This document shows, in pieces, positions 9,045 to 41,521 of a stretch of DNA of 64,000 nt. Under the pieces are notes generated by a model, which saw nothing but the letters and a program-made list of their open reading frames with translations, was not told where the DNA came from and searched no databases. The stretch covers positions 62,001 to 126,000 of the forward strand of contig JADIIX010000035.1 of assembly GCA_027604505.1 (NCBI GenBank), in the 5' to 3' direction. A program made the translations under genes and the position numbers. Origin of the DNA: Gonapodya sp. JEL0774. Its lineage: Eukaryota > Monoblepharomycota > Monoblepharidomycetes > Monoblepharidales > Gonapodyaceae. Each line of letters begins with the position of its first letter. Position 1 is the stretch's first letter.

Positions 9045-9653
9045 CTGGCGAGGTTTTTTCTTTTGAATTTCTTGAAAATGTCGTTGGGTCTTGGATTGTG
9101 TATCGTGACTTAAAAGCTGAAGAAGTTCTTGGATATATTATGTATTGATGATATGTAGCCTGGACTCACTTGCATATGACACCCACTCAGCACTGCATCA
9201 GGTACAAATAGAGGAGGTCACATCCGATTGCGTATGATGAAAAATGAGAAGCTGTGGATAGTAGGGATCCGACAATCTTCAAATCAAATCCAATCTGCCG
9301 CTTCCAGATTTCACGGATGGAACTTGATCCCTTGATATGAGTACCTTCATGACAGGCCCCAAGAAACTCATCATTATTAGTGATTGGCCATAATGCATAA
9401 TGGACTGGGACCAGAACAGTCATGGACGGAAACGTTCCCAATCACGTGCCGTGGGGCATCGCTGTTGTTCCCGAGATAATAATATGACCTGGGATGAAGG
9501 CTCCCTCTCACTATCCTCATTCTTCATTTGCTATTTCGACGAACGATCAAATTGTGACACTCATCAATGGTGGACATAACACATTGTGAAATTTTAGGGT
9601 TGATTGCTTTCGGCTTCACAATAATGACTGCAGCATGACCCACGGTGAATGAT
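9045..9653. other. Divergent intergenic region
   Basis: About 600 nt separating the minus-strand paralogue from the plus-strand coiled-coil gene; presumably both promoters. No gene, repeat or RNA recognised. Confidence 0.45.
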
Positions 9654-10664
9654 ATGCGAACAGAAACTCAAATCAAACTTGCCACGCTGGAATCTCAATC
9701 TTTGGAAACTTCATCAACGTACGGACTCGAATCAGACTCGGAATCATCGATTCGAGCGAGCATCGACATTCGTCCCGGATACGCAGACCGTCGCAATCTG
9801 AAAATGGACATCGCTTTTTCCGGACCCGATACTTTGGAACCACGGCCGGCATCCAGCCTCAGCACTGCTTCGCGACCTCCGATCCGCTCACCTGTGACCG
9901 AGCGAGTGCCGGAAACCGGTCCCAGAGTGGTTCAACGGACCGCGACCTCGCCCCCCCGAACACAGCCCCGTCTTCGAAACTTTACCCCCGGGTCCTTGTT
10001 TGGTCACAAAAAGAGCGAAACCACAGATGGGAACGATCTGCGAGGGCGTGGGGTGGCGCCTGTCCGCGTGTCGACCGGTCCTCCGTTTGATACCATTGGG
10101 AAGCCCACTGTGAACTTCTTTCAACACGCCATCGCCTCTTTCAACACTCAACCCCAACCCGACCAGAGCAAACCATCTCTGTTGACCAGCATCACTCGTC
10201 GGCTCTCCGGGTCTCGTAAGAAGTCCCACCAAGGTATCCAAAGAGACGATTCCCTCTCCACTCTCATCGCCACCTCCCCTACCTCCCCCACTTCCCCAAC
10301 CGATCAATCCCGTGAGATTGAAGACCTTCGTGCTCGTATCGCTGAGCTCGAGCACTCTCTTGCTGCCGAGCGTGTTCGTTCCGAGGACATGTCGACTCGT
10401 CTTGAGGCTGCTCTTTCCGAAGCTTCGGAGAGCAAACGTGCGGTATCGAACGTGGAGAAAATTGCCAGAGCCCGCAAGACACATGCGATGGAACTGGAGC
10501 ACGAACTGCGTGTTGCTCTCTCAGTGGCGGGGACTCTCGAAAGGCAGCTGCTCCTCTACGTCAATGGCATCAGTCCGAACGTAGCGCAACTGGAGGCTGA
10601 ATTGAAACTGTCGCTTCAACAGGAGGTGGCTTTGGAGGCGTCCATTGATTCATGCTGTTCATGA
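9654..10664 (+). CDS. Intronless coiled-coil protein, Ser/Thr/Pro-rich N-terminus
   Basis: A single 336-residue frame starting at ATG 9654 (MRTETQIKLATLESQ). Residues 1-210 are low-complexity, rich in S, T, P and R, ending in an SPTSPTSPT repeat. Residues about 215-325 form a long heptad-patterned coiled coil (EIEDLRARIAELEHSLAAER and on). It lacks introns, unlike all neighbours, and ends abruptly after SIDSCCS; the next 100 nt stay open in another frame, so a 3' frameshift or unrecognised intron is possible. It is convergent with the villidin-like gene, 295 nt apart. No family recognised; a structural or scaffold role is a guess from the coiled coil. Confidence 0.6.
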   Translation: MRTETQIKLATLESQSLETSSTYGLESDSESSIRASIDIRPGYADRRNLKMDIAFSGPDTLEPRPASSLSTASRPPIRSPVTERVPETGPRVVQRTATSPPRTQPRLRNFTPGSLFGHKKSETTDGNDLRGRGVAPVRVSTGPPFDTIGKPTVNFFQHAIASFNTQPQPDQSKPSLLTSITRRLSGSRKKSHQGIQRDDSLSTLIATSPTSPTSPTDQSREIEDLRARIAELEHSLAAERVRSEDMSTRLEAALSEASESKRAVSNVEKIARARKTHAMELEHELRVALSVAGTLERQLLLYVNGISPNVAQLEAELKLSLQQEVALEASIDSCCS

Positions 10665-10959: not shown

Positions 10960-11110
10960 TCAATAAATCCCAACTTCCTGCTTCACCCGCTGCTTCTTCC
11001 ACTCGGGAATCTTGATAAAAGACTCTCTCGTCATTTTAAACAGAGTCTCAAAATCGCTGTCCGAGAGTAGCTCCTCCAGCTTGGAAACATCGATGTGATG
11101 ACGCTCTGAG
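10960..11110 (-). other. Villin headpiece domain
   Basis: The C-terminal approximately 50 residues (VSKLEELLSDSDFETLFKM then TRESFIKIPEWKKQRVKQEV and GIY) match the compact headpiece subdomain: L-x-x-x-L-S-D-x-D-F, the spaced core phenylalanines, P-x-W-K-K and a basic helix. These are the residues that form the hydrophobic core and the F-actin cap in villin. The stop follows directly, as in villin and villidin. Confidence 0.88.
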
Positions 11111-14100
11111 ATTGCCTGCGCACCACCCCCAGTTTGGAGCGTGGAAGAGAACTGAAGCACTTCAGATAGCGTAAAGGTTGTTCGCGTGAGGCTGAAAAAC
11201 AGTGAGCGATAAGTGTGATGTTCGGCAAGTACTTCTTTTGCTCCTCCCATTAACGTACTCTTCGAGCGCCTCTTTGGCCGGGCGACGTTCAAAGGTATGC
11301 AAGGTTGAGTCACCAGTTTGTCGTCGCCAGCCTTGAAAGCGACACGTGAATGGTGGAGGTTCGCGCCCCGAGTCAATGACCCACACAGAAGGGGAACGCT
11401 TGGCTGTCTCGACGAATTTCTACGTGTCGGGAGGGATTCCACACTCCAAGAATGAACTTCACCGATGGAGGTTAAAGTAACCCACCAGAATCGTTCGTAA
11501 ACCGACTGTTTTCTCTTGTGGTTTCGCGTTGCATAACCTGACAAACACCTCCTCGCCATTGTCGCACATCAGCACGGGTACCTCTGCAAGGTCATCTTGC
11601 GTCACCAAGAAGAGTTCATCGCACTTATTAAAGGCAAAATTGAAGCGTTCGCGTCATTAGATCACCATTCCCAGCACTAAAATGAAGGCACTGAAGTGAT
11701 GTGGCAGAGTCTCACCATCACATTCCCGACACCAATGGAAAATCCAAAAAATCGGTTTGATATTGACGTCGAGAGGTTTTCAACCGCACGCTGCCATTCA
11801 TTCGCTTCCCACTTATGGCGCCGCAGGAGATCGTGAATTTCTGCTGTCCCGGCTACAAGTTTGAACTTGCCGCTCGGCGTCTTGTGGGTCCCAAAAAGAA
11901 ACTGGCAGTCTCGCGTTGCTTGGGATTCAAGAGATCGTCTTGCGGATTCATTGACGTGAGGTCCGTGGTAAATAATTGCCAACTCTTGTGGAGGAATGAG
12001 AACCAAGGACGCAAACGGGTAGAGTGAAATGTCTTAATGGGAGCAAGGTGAGGACTATTCGCAGTTGTGCCTACATAGATCAACGAGAAGCAAACACGTA
12101 CCTCGTACTTCACACTCCCACGCGGTGAGATTACCCTGCTCCGATTCACGAACATCGAAAACAGTCAGACTTCCCCGAGCTTCATTTCGATCTCTAGCAC
12201 CCCTCTCCACCAGAGGGTCCCTTCCTATCTTGAAGACAACCAAACCACCCAAGATCTTTACGAAATGTGAAGGCTCTTTCCCTTGCATGACACGGACTTG
12301 CTGAACCTCCCCTGCCCCTTCCTTACCGAGCTCCACCGCCAAAAGCGCTGCTGTTCCCTTTTGTGTAATAGGACTATCGCGGCCTTGCCAAAAGTACGCA
12401 ACTCGCTTGTCGATTTGTGAAGTTCCTCCCACAGCTGGACGGTATCGATAAATCATGAGGTACGAATCGCTCTCAAATAACACGTTGTGGCGGCTGGGCG
12501 GTACATCAACCCGGCTGAATTCATTTACGAGATAGACGGATAGATTTCCTGGTTCCTTGCCATCATCGTCCACGACGGCTTCTTTCGGTTTGTTTTGCGC
12601 GGCGTTAAAGATCGAAACATCGATGTCAGTTTGAGCCAAAGACCGTGCAATGCGAGCTGGCCCTTCTTCCGCTGGCCTCATGGAAATTGGCAAGGAGCCT
12701 ACGTAATCTACGAATTTATCCTGACAAGGCCACAAGAGGATGGGAACCAGTGAGGAATATATCGACTGGTACGGGCTCACCTTGAACAGCACGCTCTCCT
12801 GACCTTCATTGGTTTTCATAATCACAACATATCCCGGACATCGTTCATTTCCTTCACCTTTCATACTCACTTCGACCTCAGACATCCTCAACGACACTGC
12901 CTTCCATATGTTTGAAGCCAACTCCCTGAGATCCATGGGAGAACCTTTTCCTACCCACAGAAGCACTTCACGGTCCCCTCCAACGACCAGGTAGCAGGAA
13001 CCAGACTTGAGCAAATTCTTGGAGGGAGCGATACCCTCATAAACGAGCTCCAACCGTTTCCGAAACACCCTGCAAAACTGTACTTCAAGCACTTTGATGA
13101 TCCGTGGTCTCGGCGTTCTATTTGCCAACGAGTCATCTCCTCCTAAACAATCACCGTCCCCATTGCCTGCCACAACCCCTTCCCCTTTCTCACTCCCAAG
13201 AACCTTCCAAAACTGCGGCCACCCACTATCTCGTTCATCCACAACACATATTCGCGGTCTGTTCTGTCTCTCCTTACGTATTCGCGATGCCCAATCCATT
13301 GCTTGCCCGCGGCAGACTCGCGACGAGTCTGGACCAGCCCAGCGGTAGATAATATCGCCAGCATCGAGAACAGCACAAATAGAGGGGTGAAGGTGCGAGT
13401 AATGCAAGGGGACCGGATCGGTGACCTTAGCCACCGAAGGAAGGAAAAGATGAAGACCATGTCCACATTGCATCACAGACCCAGCCCTCTGCAGAAACTC
13501 ACCAGTTTCACTGCGCCGCTTATCACTATCATTAATGGAGCTTCCTTCCTCGCCGCCATTGTCCCATCCACTTCAAACACATGCGGCTGTTTCCTCCCCA
13601 CCAACGACGTGCTCGCCATTGTAACTATGCTTCTCCCGGCCCTAGCCCCAAGCAATCCCAGATCAACCTCGCTTTTCACTCCAAGTCTTCCTAGCATGTC
13701 ATACGACCGAAGTCGTTGTCTCGCCATCTCCGCGCAAAACCTGTCCCGCGCTCTTGTTGAACTCACACCATGCACAATGGCTGACCCATCAGCGAGTCGA
13801 GTTCGGAACCAAGCGGTGCTTCGGAAACGACCCGGAAGCGGCGGCAGTCCCGGACGAGGGACATTAGCCGTTCTGGTCGCCGTTTCGTTGGGTGATTCAC
13901 ACACCTCAACAAAAATGATCTCGGCAGCCTTCACTACCCTCTCAGGTATCCTCGCGACACAAGCCTCGTAGTAGAACATGTCGCCCTCGATCATCGCAAG
14001 CCACTTAGCTCCCTGCATAAGTTCGCCCTTGCCCTGCTTGTCGCTCTCACATAGCACTTCCACCTCAATCTCTTGGCATTCACCAGCCTCACACCCCACA

Positions 14101-17100
14101 GAGCCCACATTGTCAATAACGTCTCGGAATGCCACTACCCACTCTGCGGCATCCCTCGCGCTTCTGCACTTGAAAAACTCTGCCCGCCCATCTGCCATTG
14201 TCACTTGCACCACGTCCATCCCACCTCCGCCTCCTTTAACGTCCATTACCCCTCCTGCTGTCATGTCCGCCAGTCTTGCGCTCATTACTTCACCTACATC
14301 CACCGCCTCAACGGGCTCTGAGCCCGGTCGAAATGTCCTCAGGTCTCCCTCGTGCATCAAGAGTATGCCGTCCGCGTCCAACGTCGCCAGCCGAGGCCGC
14401 CATGTTTCCGGTGGTGCGGGTCGAGCTTGGCCTGCATGTGTCACTGGTCCAAGATGTTCAACAGCAGACATGAGGAGAGACGTTTGTCGCAGGACTGTTG
14501 CTCGCCTAACCAGGTCTTGGCTCCCGCCCGCGGTAGTCCTTGTCAACTTTCCCGACGAACCCAATTCCTTTGTTCTCTCGTTAACCAAACTAACGAATAC
14601 GTCTCTCATCCTCTCATCTCCAAACCTCATCCTCCAAACAATTGTTCCGTCCTCCACGGTAGCACCAAACCCCCCGACACCGCTGGCTGCACCAGGCACA
14701 TACGGCACGGTGTCAACTCTAACGATCTCGTCCAGCCATACCGAGCCCGCGAGATTGTACACTCGGTCTGACCGAGGACCTATTGTGGACACGGTACTTC
14801 TGCTTAAAAACCACACTCTCCCTTTTCTCACACATACCCTTCCAGAAACCCACGGTCCCTCTGCTCGCGCGAACCCTACCGATCCACCGGCTATCGCAAC
14901 TTGCCCAGTGCCTCCTTGACCACCACCACTGTGCCGCCTCAGCTCACATTCGGCCATGAACGGCGGAGGCGGGTATAAAGGCCTAGAAGATTGGGCAGGA
15001 GCCCGCACAGCCGCTGTATTGGCGCGACGGAGGGCTGCTGCCGCAGTTGGACGACGAGACAAGCCCGGTGATGGCGTGGGAGACCCGCGTGGGGAATCTG
15101 TCGAAGCCTTTCCACCAGTTGCTGCACCAAGAATATTGACGATGGACCCGGAGAGCACAGATGGCACTCTTGAATGCGCCGCACTCCCAGCACTCTCCAA
15201 TAAACCTCCTGTTCCGTCAAGAACCACCTCCGCCTCCAACATTCGCACCCAATCGTCGACCACAGTACCCCTCCCATCAAATTCTATCGCGATGCTCGGG
15301 TACAGCATTGCTGCAACAGGATCATCGACTGGTACAGTCATTGGTGTACTTTTGGAGGCAACCGTGGACTGAGCAGACACGGTCGCCGCACGGGACACGA
15401 GAGCTTCCCTTCGCGGGATATGAAGCGAGATCAAGTCGATGGAGCTGTCTGGGCTGGCCCGTTGAAATTTGGAGCAAGGTCAAAATACTTTACAGGGCGG
15501 AGAGAGTGGCAAGGTGGCTTAATGAGTCACTTACAGTATTCGCACGAATCTCCCTACTTCCCATTTCACTCTATCGTACCCTCCGGGGGGCTCTATATGT
15601 GCAAGGGCAGTCTCGATGTGCGGAGTGTTAATTTTATCGGTCAGATTGCACAATGACGGACAACACAACAGACAACTCACCGCTCCTTTATCCACTTTCG
15701 CCCATCCAATTTTCTTCCACTCCACGTTCCCACATTCGTCTGATGAACTTTCCTCATACCCCTCCTCCACCTCCCACCCACCAACGCCGGCTTCCCCTTT
15801 ACTCCACGTCCACGCCACTCCCCTTCGCTCATCCCATACGGGTATGGCGGCGCTAGGACCGTCAGGCAGGGGTATGGAGGAGATGAGTGACGTGGTTGAA
15901 GTATCAGGGTGCGAAAAGCATGTGGTGGAGAGTAAGAGGAACCGGCGGGAAGGCGGAGGTAGAGACAGAAGGAGGTATGGTGTGCCCAAAAGAGCAATAA
16001 GCGAAGCAGGGCGCGTTGGAGGGCTCGGTGCGGGAAGGAGCTGAGAGGAAGAGAAAAAGTGCGATGGTTCAGCAGAAAATCTTTCAAGTAGCCATTGGAC
16101 AAAGAGACTTCTGCGACGCTGCCAATTCTTTCCGAGATGGCAATCAATCCTGCCAAACGCGAACTCACCACCTTGACTCCACCTTCTCCACTCGCATGAA
16201 GCAACATTACCGCTCCATCTTGTGTCGCGACAGCGATCAGTGTAGACATCGGCCACGCGATATGGTATGGTGTGAGCGGAGATTGCGTCGTCGGGTCAGT
16301 GGGCGGTGGTTGCACGATTGAGGAGGATGGGTCCGAGGAGAAGACAGGAGGATGAACTGGAGGTAAAGGATTGGATAAATTTATGCACCGGAGTTGAAGC
16401 ATCCGGTGGACGTCCCATATTCGGATGGTAGAGTCGCTGGGGAGTGAGGAGACATGAGGCAGAGCAAGAGGGGATCGGTCAAAAGAGTTTGTGCTGAGCG
16501 TTCCAGATATGGAAATGAAAGAATGAATGATGGTCTGGTTCCATCTCTCCAGTTTGTACTCGGTAGTCACAGGTCCGGCAAGTAAGCAGGTTGTTGTGTG
16601 CTTGCACCTGGTGTTTCCTGAACTTCTGCACCTCCTCACCCCATTCCGCATCTACTCATGGCTGATCTTGACTTCGGCGTTCAAGCTAAGAATTGGAATC
16701 ACAATACTCACCTGGCTCCCGAAGCGAGCAATCCATAAACACACGGATGCCACTGAAAACACGAGACTTTTCCCTCGTGACCTGCCAGGTAGGCGTGAGC
16801 AACGTCCATGTGGAGTGCAGGTGGTTCATCTGAAGAGCTGAATTCAGAGGACACTGAGGAAGAGAAGACAGTTAGTCGGTCGAGAACAGCCGGTGAGATG
16901 GACCAAATGCGAATTATGAGGTCGTTGCGTGATGTGGAAGCGATAAGGAGGGTCTGGACCTCCGTTGAATTGGGTGACCTGTCTTCAGACTTGGCAAGGA
17001 CAACTCCAAAAGACGGGGAAAACTGAAACATGGACACCGGCAACGGATGAACAAATGCGACGGGTGGAGAAAGGACTCTGGTTGATTTTAGGGAAATCGT

Positions 17101-17651
17101 CGATGGAATGGGGAGGAGGGCCAGAGCAGTCGGGGAAGAGAGGGGGTAACCAAGAATGGTTGGGGTGGCCTTTGGTGGTCATTGTGTCCATCCGAGAGCG
17201 CACGAAAATGCCATCAAGGGAAAGTAATCGATATCAAGGAATACACGTACACAGTTTCGAAGGGGATTCCAAGAGAATCATCGGCTTTAACACTTCTGTA
17301 TTCGTGCACTCAGCGCGTCAAACTCACCACAATTTTCGTCAGCGCCGTCGGCTCCGTCCTCAGTCCCACATAAACCGGTTTTGCACTCGTCGAGCCGTAC
17401 ATGTTCCGAAAGACGGACAGCGTTTGAGGTGCGGAACCACCGACTCCACGAATGCCCGTGCTCGCCACCGACCCGGAGGCAGACACGGCCGAGCCTGAGC
17501 GACTGTGCGTGATTGAGGATGAAGGGACGGGAAGTGTCCATGCCGCGTTTCCTCCAGCTGTCGTGGTGAGTCCCTTGGTCCCGGCCCCTCCCGCAGACTC
17601 TGCCCGTGTTAATGTCACGTCTGGTCCTAGTCGAAACGCCGACATTTTCAT
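10960..17651 (-). CDS. Villidin-like actin-binding protein (WD40 + PH + gelsolin repeats + headpiece)
   Basis: A large multi-exon gene reading from ATG 17651 to TGA 10960-10962, roughly 1,800-1,900 residues. The N-terminus is Ser/Gly-rich, then coronin-like (FRNMYGSTSAKPVYVGL) with WD repeats (LAGHEGKVSCFQWHP, DSTIRIWDV). The long exon 13.5-15.4 kb carries PH-like blocks (ADGRAEFFKCRSARDAAEWV; SARLADMTAGG). The exons 10.96-13.46 kb carry about five gelsolin-like segments (AGDIIYRWAGPDSSRV; GGDREVLLWVGKGSP; VAYFWQGRDSPITQKG; ELAIIYHGPHVNESA; VWVIDSGREPPPFTCRFQGW). The last exon encodes a villin headpiece with conserved core F residues, PEWKK and terminal VGIY. The domain order is that of Dictyostelium villidin, so F-actin and membrane association is expected. 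Some junctions are not fixed. Confidence 0.85.
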
Positions 17652-37106: not shown

Positions 37107-40100
37107 ATGATGGCAAACACGGTGGCAAACGTGAGCGAGTTGGATGTGACGCCATTGGCAACACCAGCTGTCCACCCGCTGGCGGCGTTCGTGTCCGATC
37201 GTTCGATTCCGTCAATCAATGCTCTGCCTCATGTGTTTGGGACGTCGACAAACTTTCATCCGTACCCGAATTCCGACTTGGCTGCCGATGGTCTCAAAGA
37301 GTGGTACACCAAGATGGTTAACGTCGATTCCATCTCAGCGTTCCCCGAGAAGTGCTCCTGGATTCACTCTCTGGACACTTATGGCAACATAGAGGGTGGT
37401 GCCGACGTGACTGACCCCCTGGTTCCCTCGGCCACTCCAAAGCCGAAGCCGATCGCCCAAAACCGTTGGCTGTTTTCTCTCGCCCCCACCATCGAAGAAG
37501 CTCCTCTAGATTTTGCGCTGGATTCTAGCTATGTCCCCGTTCTCGCTGGACCAGAGGTTGAGTTCGCAGCCGAGAGCTCACTTGCCAAATCGGCGGTACG
37601 GGCGTGGAGGGAAATTGATGTACCTTGCAACTGGCAAATGCCCAGGAACTCGGCTATTGCTGAGGGCTCGGACGAGTATCGGTACGGGAAACCGTGGTAC
37701 ACCAAGTAAGTAAGAGCTCATCAGGGATTTGAGGAGGCGATTCTCCCAGGAACTCAGAGCGTGCCCATGATGCGTCAGTTAACGCATTGTAAGAATCAAA
37801 ATTAAAGCAGGTTTTAGGTGCAAGTCATGTGTTGGAACCGGAACATGGATTTCCGTGACTGGGTTCGGTTTCCGACAAGCGAACAGCCGAAGTGTCGATG
37901 GTGTGTCGAGCTGAAAGGCCGATCCAGCGAGCATCGGAAATGTTCCATAGACTTTCCTTAATGCATCACCACATTGACCGCAAACTTACCCTCTCACTAC
38001 CAAATCCGAATGTCTCGCTAGCGTCGTTTACCCAATCTCTATGTGCCCGCCGCACACACCGTCTCTCAATCCCACCGCCTCCTACCTCCTTGACTTCCAC
38101 CTACCATCCCACTTTCCCCTTCCCGCCTCAGGACCCCGTCCCACCATCCGTCTCACCTTCGCCGGCGTAGATTCGTGTTATCTTGCCTATCTCAACGGAC
38201 ATCTTGTTGGCGGGTCCAAGGGCAGCAGGTTGCCATGCTCTTACGACGTAACGGATTATTTGGTGGTGGATGACGACAGAGGACAGCGGGGAAACCAGAG
38301 ACTTACCGTTGTGGTGTGTCAATGGAGTGATGCAACATACCTTGAGGATCAAGATATGTGAGTCTCTGGTCTCTCTACTGGCAGGAAGTTGGTGTCTTTG
38401 CTGGTGTCACACATGGCCTATTTCTTTCTATCGAATTATCGTGGACACATCACACCTCTCACACAACGACCTGCCCCAGGTGGTGGCTCTCTGGCATCTT
38501 CCGTTCAGTCCACCTAACTTACCTACCCCCCTCGCCGCTCCACCTGCACGATATCTCCCTTACGCCAGTCTATAACTCCTCAACCAAGGCTGGCACCCTC
38601 ACTACCTGTGTTTCCGTTCGCGGAGACACAGCGGCCATCAAAGGGTATTCGATCAAGGTCCGCGTATGGGGCACGTCACCTACCACTCCCAACGCACCAC
38701 CTATCGAGCTATCGGCTCCAATAGCGAGCCCTGGATCTAGTACTTGTTTAGAGCGAGTGTTCTCGGGTGTGACTGGATGGACTGCAGAAACACCCGTTTT
38801 GTACACAGTGGCCGTAGCGTTGGTGTGCGATGGCAAAGAGGTGGAGGCCGTCAGCTCCATGGTGGGGTTCAGAAAGGTTGAAATTGTGGGAAAATCGGTG
38901 TTGGTGAATGGAAAACCCGTAATGTTCCGTGGTGTGGTGAGTATTGCGCTTCCGAGCAGCAATGGGAGTGCTGATGCGAATGCCTGACATGACATGGATC
39001 CATAGAACCGCCACGAGTGGCATCCAGTTCATGGTCGCGCTCTACCTCCTTCCACTGCCCTCGTTGATCTCCTCCTTGTCAAGCAAAACTCCTGCAACGC
39101 TCTCCGCACCTCCCATTACCCTCCGAGTCATCTTATTCCCCATCTTGCCTCTCAACTCGGTCTCTATCTTGTGCTCGAAAACGATCTCGAGACACATGGA
39201 TTTGAACTCGGTGCACCTCCAACGGGTGGAGGCGGGACGAGAGAACTCAATGTGCCTCAACCGAGCTCCGACCCCGTCTGGTGGCCTCAATACCGTGACA
39301 GAATGCGGCGCACGGTCGCACGGGATAAGAATCAGCCCTGTATTGTTATGTGGTCCATGGGGAATGAGGCTGGGTTCGGTGTCAATTTGATGAATCTGGC
39401 AGCATGGATTCGTGCTGGAGCCTTTGGGTACCATGTAAACCAAAAGCGGGAAGCTAATACTGTGGACGAGGATGGCTGGACGGGGCTTGGTGCGGGACAT
39501 GGCTTACCTATACATTACGAAGGGGATTACCGGTGTGAGGCGGCCGACGTTTACAGCCAGATGTAGTGAGTAGGGCGATCCTTTCTCAGATTTGAAGCAA
39601 GGAGCGAACGCTTATACTTTTTGTTATTTTCATTTCATATTGATTCGTTAGTCCATCTCATGAACAGGTGGATAACGTTGGGAAGGGTGAGGCAGGATAT
39701 GGGAAGCCTTACATTTTGTGCGAGTACGCCCACACTATGGGTAGGTTACCTCAAGGAAATTTGATTCTTTTTTGGCCAATAGAGAAACGAAACCTTCAAT
39801 GTTTCCTTTCCAGGTACCGGCCCTGGTGGCCTCGCAGAGTATTCAGAACTTTTCCGGAAGCACTTCCCACGCATCCAAGGCGGTTGGATTTGGGAATTGT
39901 TGGAACACGGTGTGCTGATGCGGGACTCTGCAACAGGCAAGCCTTACTATGCTTTTGGCGGTGATTTTGGGGAGGATGTTCATGACGGAAACTTCATTGT
40001 CGACGGTCTGGTGAGAGGAGGAAGAGAGCCGAAGACGGGCTTGTTGGAGATGAAAAAGGTGCTCTCGGCTGTGAGGATTGCAGTAGAACCTGCTGTTGAC

Positions 40101-41521
40101 GGTAAAGCGTGTGTCATAGTTTGGAATGAGTACGACTTTGTGGGATTGGAGCACTTGAACTTGCAGTGGACTTTGACCAAGGAGGGCGAGACGATTGAGT
40201 CCGGAGTCATTCCATCGGTGCAATACTCGGGGACTGCTCCTTGGACTTCGAGGAGGCTTGAGATTGCTTTTAACACGAAAGTTCCCAAGGTGGATAGTGC
40301 TGAGTGGGTGCTCACTGTTGTCGCAACTCTGAAAGCAAAGACTGTTTGGGCTGCAGCCGGTCATGAGCTTGCATGGGGCCAAGGCATCTTGCGAGAGAAG
40401 ACTTGGTTGCCTGTCAGCGCCATCACATCTCTTCCCGCAAAGGCTGGCACCGATGCTCAGGTGTCTGCTTCTCAAAGTTCTACCACGATATTAGTGGAGA
40501 ACCCATCATTCCGTGTCATTTTCGACCGTGTCCGTGGCACACTTGTGGATTGGAGCATCGTCAGATTGGATGGAAGTCGACAGGCCATTATGACGCATGG
40601 TCCTCGCTTTAACCTCTGGCGGCCTCCGACGGACAACGACATGTACCACACCAAAGCGTGGCGATACAATGGACTCGATAGAGTGCGACACATGACAGTC
40701 AAGGTGGATGTGGAGACGGTGAAGGCGCGGAAAGAAGGTCAGGCGTTGGACTCTGTTCGCGTGAAGATTGTGAGCAGGGTGGGCCCTCCGGTGTGGGATT
40801 GGGCTGTCAAGGTGGTTTACAACTGGGAGATCTTTTCGAATGGAGTGATTGAACTTGGTGTTGATGCAGAATTCATTGACAACGTCGTGAAAACAATGAT
40901 TCCGAAGTAAGTGAGCACGAGGTGGACCATGATTGGCCACGGCATGCAGACTGTCTCACCATTCACGAAATCAACAGAATCGGCCTTAACGCCCGTATCC
41001 CCAACTCGCTCCAGTCAATCGCGTGGTACGGTCTAGGACCCCACGATGCGTACGTAGACGTCGGTAACTCTGCCCGCCTCGGTGCCCATTCTGCAGACTC
41101 CGTCACCGCACTCGACGGGCGTTTCGAAATGACATCCCCCCAAGAAGCCGGTAACCGTCATGGAACGCGATGGGTCCAGATTCGCGACCCAGCAACCGGT
41201 AGTGGGTTCAGGGTGGAGGGTGCCTCTTCACCTTTCGACTTTTCTGTATCACGATTTACTGACAAGGAGGTGATGGATGCAAAGCATCCAACGGATTTAC
41301 AGAAAATTTTGAACGAAAAGTCACGCCAGAGAGTGTCCAGGGGACCGTCTTTGGAGACAGACACTTACATTCTCAACCTCGACCATCGCCACAATGGAAT
41401 CGGGACCAATAGTTGCGGCCCCGACGTTTTACCGCCTTATCAGCTATTGCCCGGCAATTTCAGATGGAAAATGCGGTTCGTTCCCTTGGGAGGAGAGGGA
41501 GGTTTGTCTGCACGAATCTGA
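37107..41521 (+). CDS. Beta-galactosidase, glycoside hydrolase family 2 (LacZ/LAC4-type)
   Basis: Multi-exon gene of roughly 1,200 residues. Exon 1 (37107..37705) is in phase with exon 2 from 38022. An N-terminal extension of about 60 residues leads into the sugar-binding/jelly-roll domain (FHPYPNSDL, IDVPCNWQMP, VVYPISMCPPH, FAGVDSCYLAYLNGHLVGGSKGSRLP). The TIM barrel follows: VLVNGKPVMFRGVNRHEWHP, the acid/base Glu in WSMGNEAGFG (about 39366), and the nucleophile Glu in ILCEYAHTMG (about 39722), split by an intron after MG. The C-terminal small-chain domain has NLWRPPTDND and WYGLGPHDAY. No signal peptide, so intracellular lactose/galactoside hydrolysis is expected. Intron 1 is unusually long (316 nt). 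Divergent from a dead sugar permease. Confidence 0.88.

Follow-up and report, generated by a model that had tools for sequence, protein, structure and literature searches.

A probable class-4 coronin of the villidin type in Gonapodya sp. JEL0774

Introduction

Does the genome of Gonapodya sp. JEL0774 join, in one gene, the actin- and membrane-related domains that define Dictyostelium villidin, and if so, by what descent did a fungus come to hold them? The question is raised by a minus-strand gene at positions 10960-17651 of a 64,000-nucleotide stretch of this genome (the window, which covers positions 62001-126000 of its contig in an assembly of 25.0 Mb and 381 contigs). A taxonomy look-up places Gonapodya in the Monoblepharomycota. 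The gene very probably represents the class-4 coronins, the villidin type, in Gonapodya, and was most likely inherited vertically within the chytrid lineage. Its domain order, a coronin propeller, three PH-like domains, gelsolin segments corresponding to villin G2-G6 and a headpiece, is common to many chytrid relatives; the assignment is one of domain content and order.

Class-4 coronins were defined, with Dictyostelium villidin as the type, by Eckert et al. (2011, PMC3203266), who in the available text name Spizellomyces punctatus, a chytrid amenable to transformation (PMC7213984), as a fungal member. Because they do so, the suggestion of the first-pass annotation that such a protein is a surprise for fungi is not supported: a villidin-type protein in a fungus is already in print, and neither the class nor its occurrence in fungi is new. 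What is new is the Gonapodya member, a likelier start codon than that of the public record, and signs of divergence. Our literature searches returned no paper devoted to a fungal class-4 member, the likeliest chytrid actin paper (Prostak et al. 2021) lying outside their coverage.

Gene structure and start codon

Read from an ATG at 17651 to a stop codon at 10960-10962, the spliced gene has 12 exons and encodes 1849 residues with no internal stop. All 11 introns, of 60-275 bases each, are bounded by GT..AG; once they are removed, the other two frames are interrupted by 72 and 83 stops. A splice model without the small exon 15611-15535 was rejected, the frame being lost past exon 4 and regained with the exon, whose residues are also present in the public protein. 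That protein, the prediction HDU93_006017 (Gonapodya sp. JEL0774), is identical in all of its 1766 residues to residues 84-1849 of our model. The single minus-strand gene first proposed for the locus is thereby confirmed, with exact coordinates, an open splice model and an identical public protein.

HDU93_006017 begins with Met84 of the model, within a conserved N-terminal coronin motif (window 17403-17651). Relatives read S-[KR]-x-[RK]-N-x-F here; the corresponding stretch of the window protein, beginning at residue 78, is L-S-V-F-R-N-M-Y, and the match to a chytrid coronin profile begins at residue 76. Since an in-frame stop directly precedes the model ATG, Met1 or Met3 is a likelier start than the public Met84, barring another upstream exon, and the public record probably lacks as many as 83 N-terminal residues.

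It might be argued that annotation has wrongly merged two or three adjacent genes encoding the WD, PH and gelsolin/villin parts, and P0002 and P0004, both from Rhizophlyctis, are indeed annotated without a propeller. However, the exon junctions are in phase, a single exon (15453-13503) runs from the end of the coronin domain through the three PH-like units into the first part of G2, and at least 18 chytrid proteins combine the WD, gelsolin and headpiece families among the best 120 of 190 proteins in our widest search. We consider such a merger highly improbable. A single transcript is supported by a public gene model and by relatives that show this domain order within single proteins.

Domain architecture

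The features of the gene are as follows.

10960-17651, minus strand: whole gene, ATG to stop; 12 exons, 1849 residues; public HDU93_006017 corresponds to residues 84-1849
15390-17426, minus strand: coronin domain (WD propeller and C-terminal extension), residues 76-517, interrupted by introns; profile, predicted fold
14559-14840, minus strand: PH-like domain 1, residues 701-794; divergent, low model confidence; predicted strands and C-terminal helix
14106-14480, minus strand: PH domain 2, residues 821-945; Pfam PH at 831-942, 18.8 bits, below the cut-off of 25.1; fold
13704-14078, minus strand: PH-like domain 3, residues 955-1079; predicted PH-like unit, matches to PH proteins
13114-13529, minus strand: gelsolin segment like villin G2, residues about 1138-1250; Pfam, alignment; approximate borders
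12679-13110, minus strand: gelsolin segment like villin G3, residues about 1252-1375; alignment; approximate borders
12220-12552, minus strand: gelsolin segment like villin G4, residues about 1418-1528; best Pfam stretch 1430-1515; alignment
11770-12177, minus strand: gelsolin segment like villin G5, residues about 1543-1655; gelsolin/villin alignment; approximate borders
11267-11757, minus strand: gelsolin segment like villin G6, residues about 1660-1770; gelsolin/villin alignment; approximate borders
10963-11067, minus strand: villin headpiece core, residues 1815-1849; Pfam; the single headpiece match found in the genome

Pfam matches exceed their cut-offs for gelsolin (70.1 bits; cut-off 21), the headpiece (45.4; 27) and DUF7904 (41.2; 30). 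Those for WD40 (26.1; 27) and PH (18.8; 25.1) fall below, so that the identity of the coronin and PH parts rests on profile, fold and alignment evidence.

An N-terminal coronin domain is supported by both profile and predicted fold. A profile of 13 chytrid coronin domains (Gonapodya excluded; two of them, P0019 and P0020, cut at residue 430, their end motif not having been found) matches residues 76-279 and 414-512, and the best matches of the predicted propeller are solved coronins. The best single stretch scores 101.6 bits, compared with 81.9 for a separate short coronin of the same genome, which has a coiled-coil-like end and lies by eye at about 200.8-202.7 kb of contig C15. Two unrelated WD40 repeat proteins outscore the window protein in total (211.1 and 177.2 versus 130.8 bits) because their totals sum over many repeats; taken singly, their highest-scoring stretches reach 33.6 and 32.4. 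The family for the coronin N-terminus, PF08953, found no match in the genome, and as the controls were equally silent this is no evidence. The residue that we take to be equivalent to coronin-1B Arg30 appears to be an arginine as well (motif Y-V-G-L-R). In coronin-1B, according to the available account, actin binding in vitro was eliminated by R30D.

Behind the coronin domain, where members of the class have two to four PH domains, three PH-like units are modelled, the first weakly: its block has predicted local distance difference test (pLDDT) values of 35-76, and it aligns with PH1 of relatives. Pfam and alignment then give five gelsolin segments, within the four to five typical of the class, with villin G1 absent; this is not villin proper (G1-G6 plus headpiece), as the alignment begins at G2. 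Identity of the gelsolin part to six relatives is 31-35%. In an alignment to wild-type plasma gelsolin (u44513) read by eye, at the positions we take to be calcium ligands, the aspartate is Ile in G2, Ser in G3, Ala in G5 and Pro in G6 and is kept only in G4, while its partner glutamate survives in G6 but is exchanged in G2 through G5; no segment retains both. The C-terminal headpiece found by Pfam retains Trp64, Lys65 and Lys70, in the numbering and with the residue roles that we assume for this fold.

The villidin-type architecture read by the first-pass annotation in an apparently fungal genome has thus stood up, on the evidence of Pfam, fold, public protein, relatives and a tree of the C-terminal part. 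Its coronin-like WD repeats and PH-like domains are borne out by profile and predicted fold, with Pfam below cut-off for both; its estimate of about five gelsolin-like segments becomes five by alignment, matching G2-G6; and its headpiece does lie at the very C-terminus (residues 1815-1849, 45.4 bits).

Several observations weigh against the class-4 assignment or blur it. In total, the fragments of the short coronin encoded elsewhere in the genome score 109.3 bits with the coronin profile and the window protein 130.8; the profile therefore identifies a coronin without telling class 4 apart from short coronins. An alignment of class-4 relatives underlies the propeller model, and when the propeller was searched without relatives only other WD40 chains stood among the best 60 of 300. 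Identity of the coronin part to the four chytrid relatives with a full domain (P0005, P0007, P0008 and P0009) is 26-28%, and to the incomplete P0006 26%; P0002, with 17 aligned residues there, is excluded from these figures, and region borders in the computation are off by one residue, which does not materially change the percentages. The PH region is 20-23% identical to six relatives, and its model has a mean pLDDT of 53.3. Headpiece position 71 is Gln instead of lysine, as in just one other of 24 proteins; position 38 is Leu, as in 22 of the 24 compared. Finally, Dictyostelium villidin was not found among the matches listed in our protein searches (best 120 of 190 in the widest).

Relatives and descent

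Two earlier protein searches listed 3 and 10 proteins; the widest scored the 7986 candidates sharing most words. The Gonapodya protein was among its queries and is not among the best 120 of 190, where at least 20 proteins combine WD-type, gelsolin and headpiece families by Pfam annotation: 18 chytrid proteins, one metagenome protein and one from the heterolobosean Willaertia magna. Most other matches listed are other WD40 proteins by the same annotation. Because of this scope, absence of the class from other fungi is not shown.

A 24-row tree was built from the C-terminal part, with no amoebozoan class-4 protein in it; P0004, P0010, P0011, P0025 and P0028 were excluded because they are paralogous, incomplete or without a headpiece. 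Gonapodya groups with 19 chytrid rows (support 98/97). The fork that puts Gonapodya outside the 19 (94/89) is drawn open and is not firm. Long branches are flagged for Gonapodya, Willaertia, Entamoeba and Lineus, among others, and unlike letter composition in seven rows. The placement agrees with a Monoblepharomycota gene passed down vertically. Lateral transfer from an amoeba would suit the patchy distribution of the class across eukaryotes described in the available part of PMC3203266, but Gonapodya stands in this tree with chytrid rows and not with Willaertia or the villin-like protein of Entamoeba, the gene has 12 exons, and ten neighbouring open frames give six above-cut-off matches, including a glycogen debranching enzyme and a PX protein. 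Transfer is, in our judgement, highly improbable, and a vertically inherited class-4 coronin remains our preferred interpretation.

This member may, alternatively, be a degenerating copy: one open gene whose actin and lipid sites are decaying and whose actin binding may be lost. The end branch of Gonapodya is 2.3 against a median of 0.84, and to this can be added the headpiece Gln71, a PH1 in which, by eye, the KG..W.R pattern seen in relatives is mostly missing, and a propeller whose residues 280-413 go unmatched by the family profile. Yet the frame is open across 1849 codons, many invariant columns are held in common with relatives, and the propeller is modelled as a coronin fold even so. 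We think degeneration unlikely, though less so than merger or transfer.

Two relatives deserve separate mention. The record of P0028, from Caulochytrium protostelioides, scores 319.3 bits with the class-4 profile in its coronin domain and has neither headpiece nor Pfam gelsolin, which is possibly lineage-specific loss or strong divergence. In the record of P0013, from Borealophlyctis nickersoniae, a class-4 coronin with an odd headpiece start is joined to an ATP-dependent RNA helicase, probably by an annotation join. Caulochytrium and Quaeritorhiza are Chytridiomycota (taxonomy was looked up for these two and Gonapodya).

Genome setting

Gelsolin-family matches occur on five other contigs (C48, C101, C66, C50 and C290), compared with the one headpiece match genome-wide. 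Convergent with the gene, a 341-codon open frame at window 9639-10664 (plus strand) has a weak Pfam match to Med21, below cut-off. Another open frame, at 39783-40910 (plus strand), carries the beta-galactosidase domains LacZ_4, GH2 and Bgal_small_N, a set best known from bacterial LacZ, and is a possible transfer candidate.

The genome also holds CYFIP-family matches and one WH1 match. In the available portions of the literature, the joint retention of WASP and SCAR was predictive of pseudopod crawling in a chytrid (PMC5461030), and loss of WAVE/SCAR has been reported for Dikarya and Mucoromycotina (PMC3298513). These two reports and the matches in the genome accord with the idea of the first-pass annotation; a link of this gene to zoospore crawling or endomembrane-actin biology is plausible. 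A review that cites Prostak et al. (2021) states that early-diverging fungi retain actin regulators absent from yeast (PMC12050087).

Proposed role

Villin G1 serves capping, nucleation, bundling and G-actin binding, and Eckert et al. infer, in the available text, that class-4 coronins, which lack G1, do not have these activities via their gelsolin domains; phospholipid sites probably account for the association of the class with internal membranes (PMC3203266). Villidin is cited, in the part of PMC2211301 available, among the actin-binding proteins needed for normal phototaxis signalling in Dictyostelium.

Judging from its sequence, the Gonapodya protein probably neither severs nor caps filaments and is insensitive to calcium, because G1 is absent and few calcium-ligand positions are left. 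Its likely role is to link membranes to actin filaments independently of calcium, not to sever or cap them. The coronin propeller would be the main actin contact, binding filament sides, perhaps together with the headpiece; the PH domains and the phospholipid sites of the villin part would bind membranes; and the G2-G6 block would join the two. The protein might in this way tie actin to membranes at the cortex or inside the cell, for instance in zoospores.

It is tempting to speculate that flagellated fungi have in their class-4 coronins a conserved link from membrane to actin that needs no calcium, that the wall-less zoospore uses it, that later fungi lost it together with their crawling or wall-less stage, and that the Gonapodya copy is drifting from headpiece-based actin binding. 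We offer this broader scenario tentatively, as possible and on balance doubtful. Although the surprise is limited, the class and its fungal presence having been known beforehand, its occurrence in many chytrid genomes provides a concrete gene for asking which ancestral fungal actin tools vanished with the zoospore.

Comparison with known systems

Dictyostelium villidin, reportedly described by Gloss et al. in 2003, is not from a fungus, unlike the Gonapodya protein. The two share a domain order insofar as the class description of Eckert et al. conveys it, the comparison being by description only. As given in the available text of that paper, class-4 coronins agree with the Gonapodya protein in their coronin domain, three PH-like domains, five gelsolin segments without G1, headpiece and the order of these parts; the Gonapodya sequence is divergent, and Gonapodya is not named there. 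Short coronins have the same propeller fold, as predicted, whereas the Gonapodya protein lacks their C-terminal coiled coil and ends in gelsolin segments and a headpiece. Villin aligns with it end to end from G2 through G6 and the headpiece; in contrast to villin, the Gonapodya protein has no G1 and adds the coronin and PH domains.
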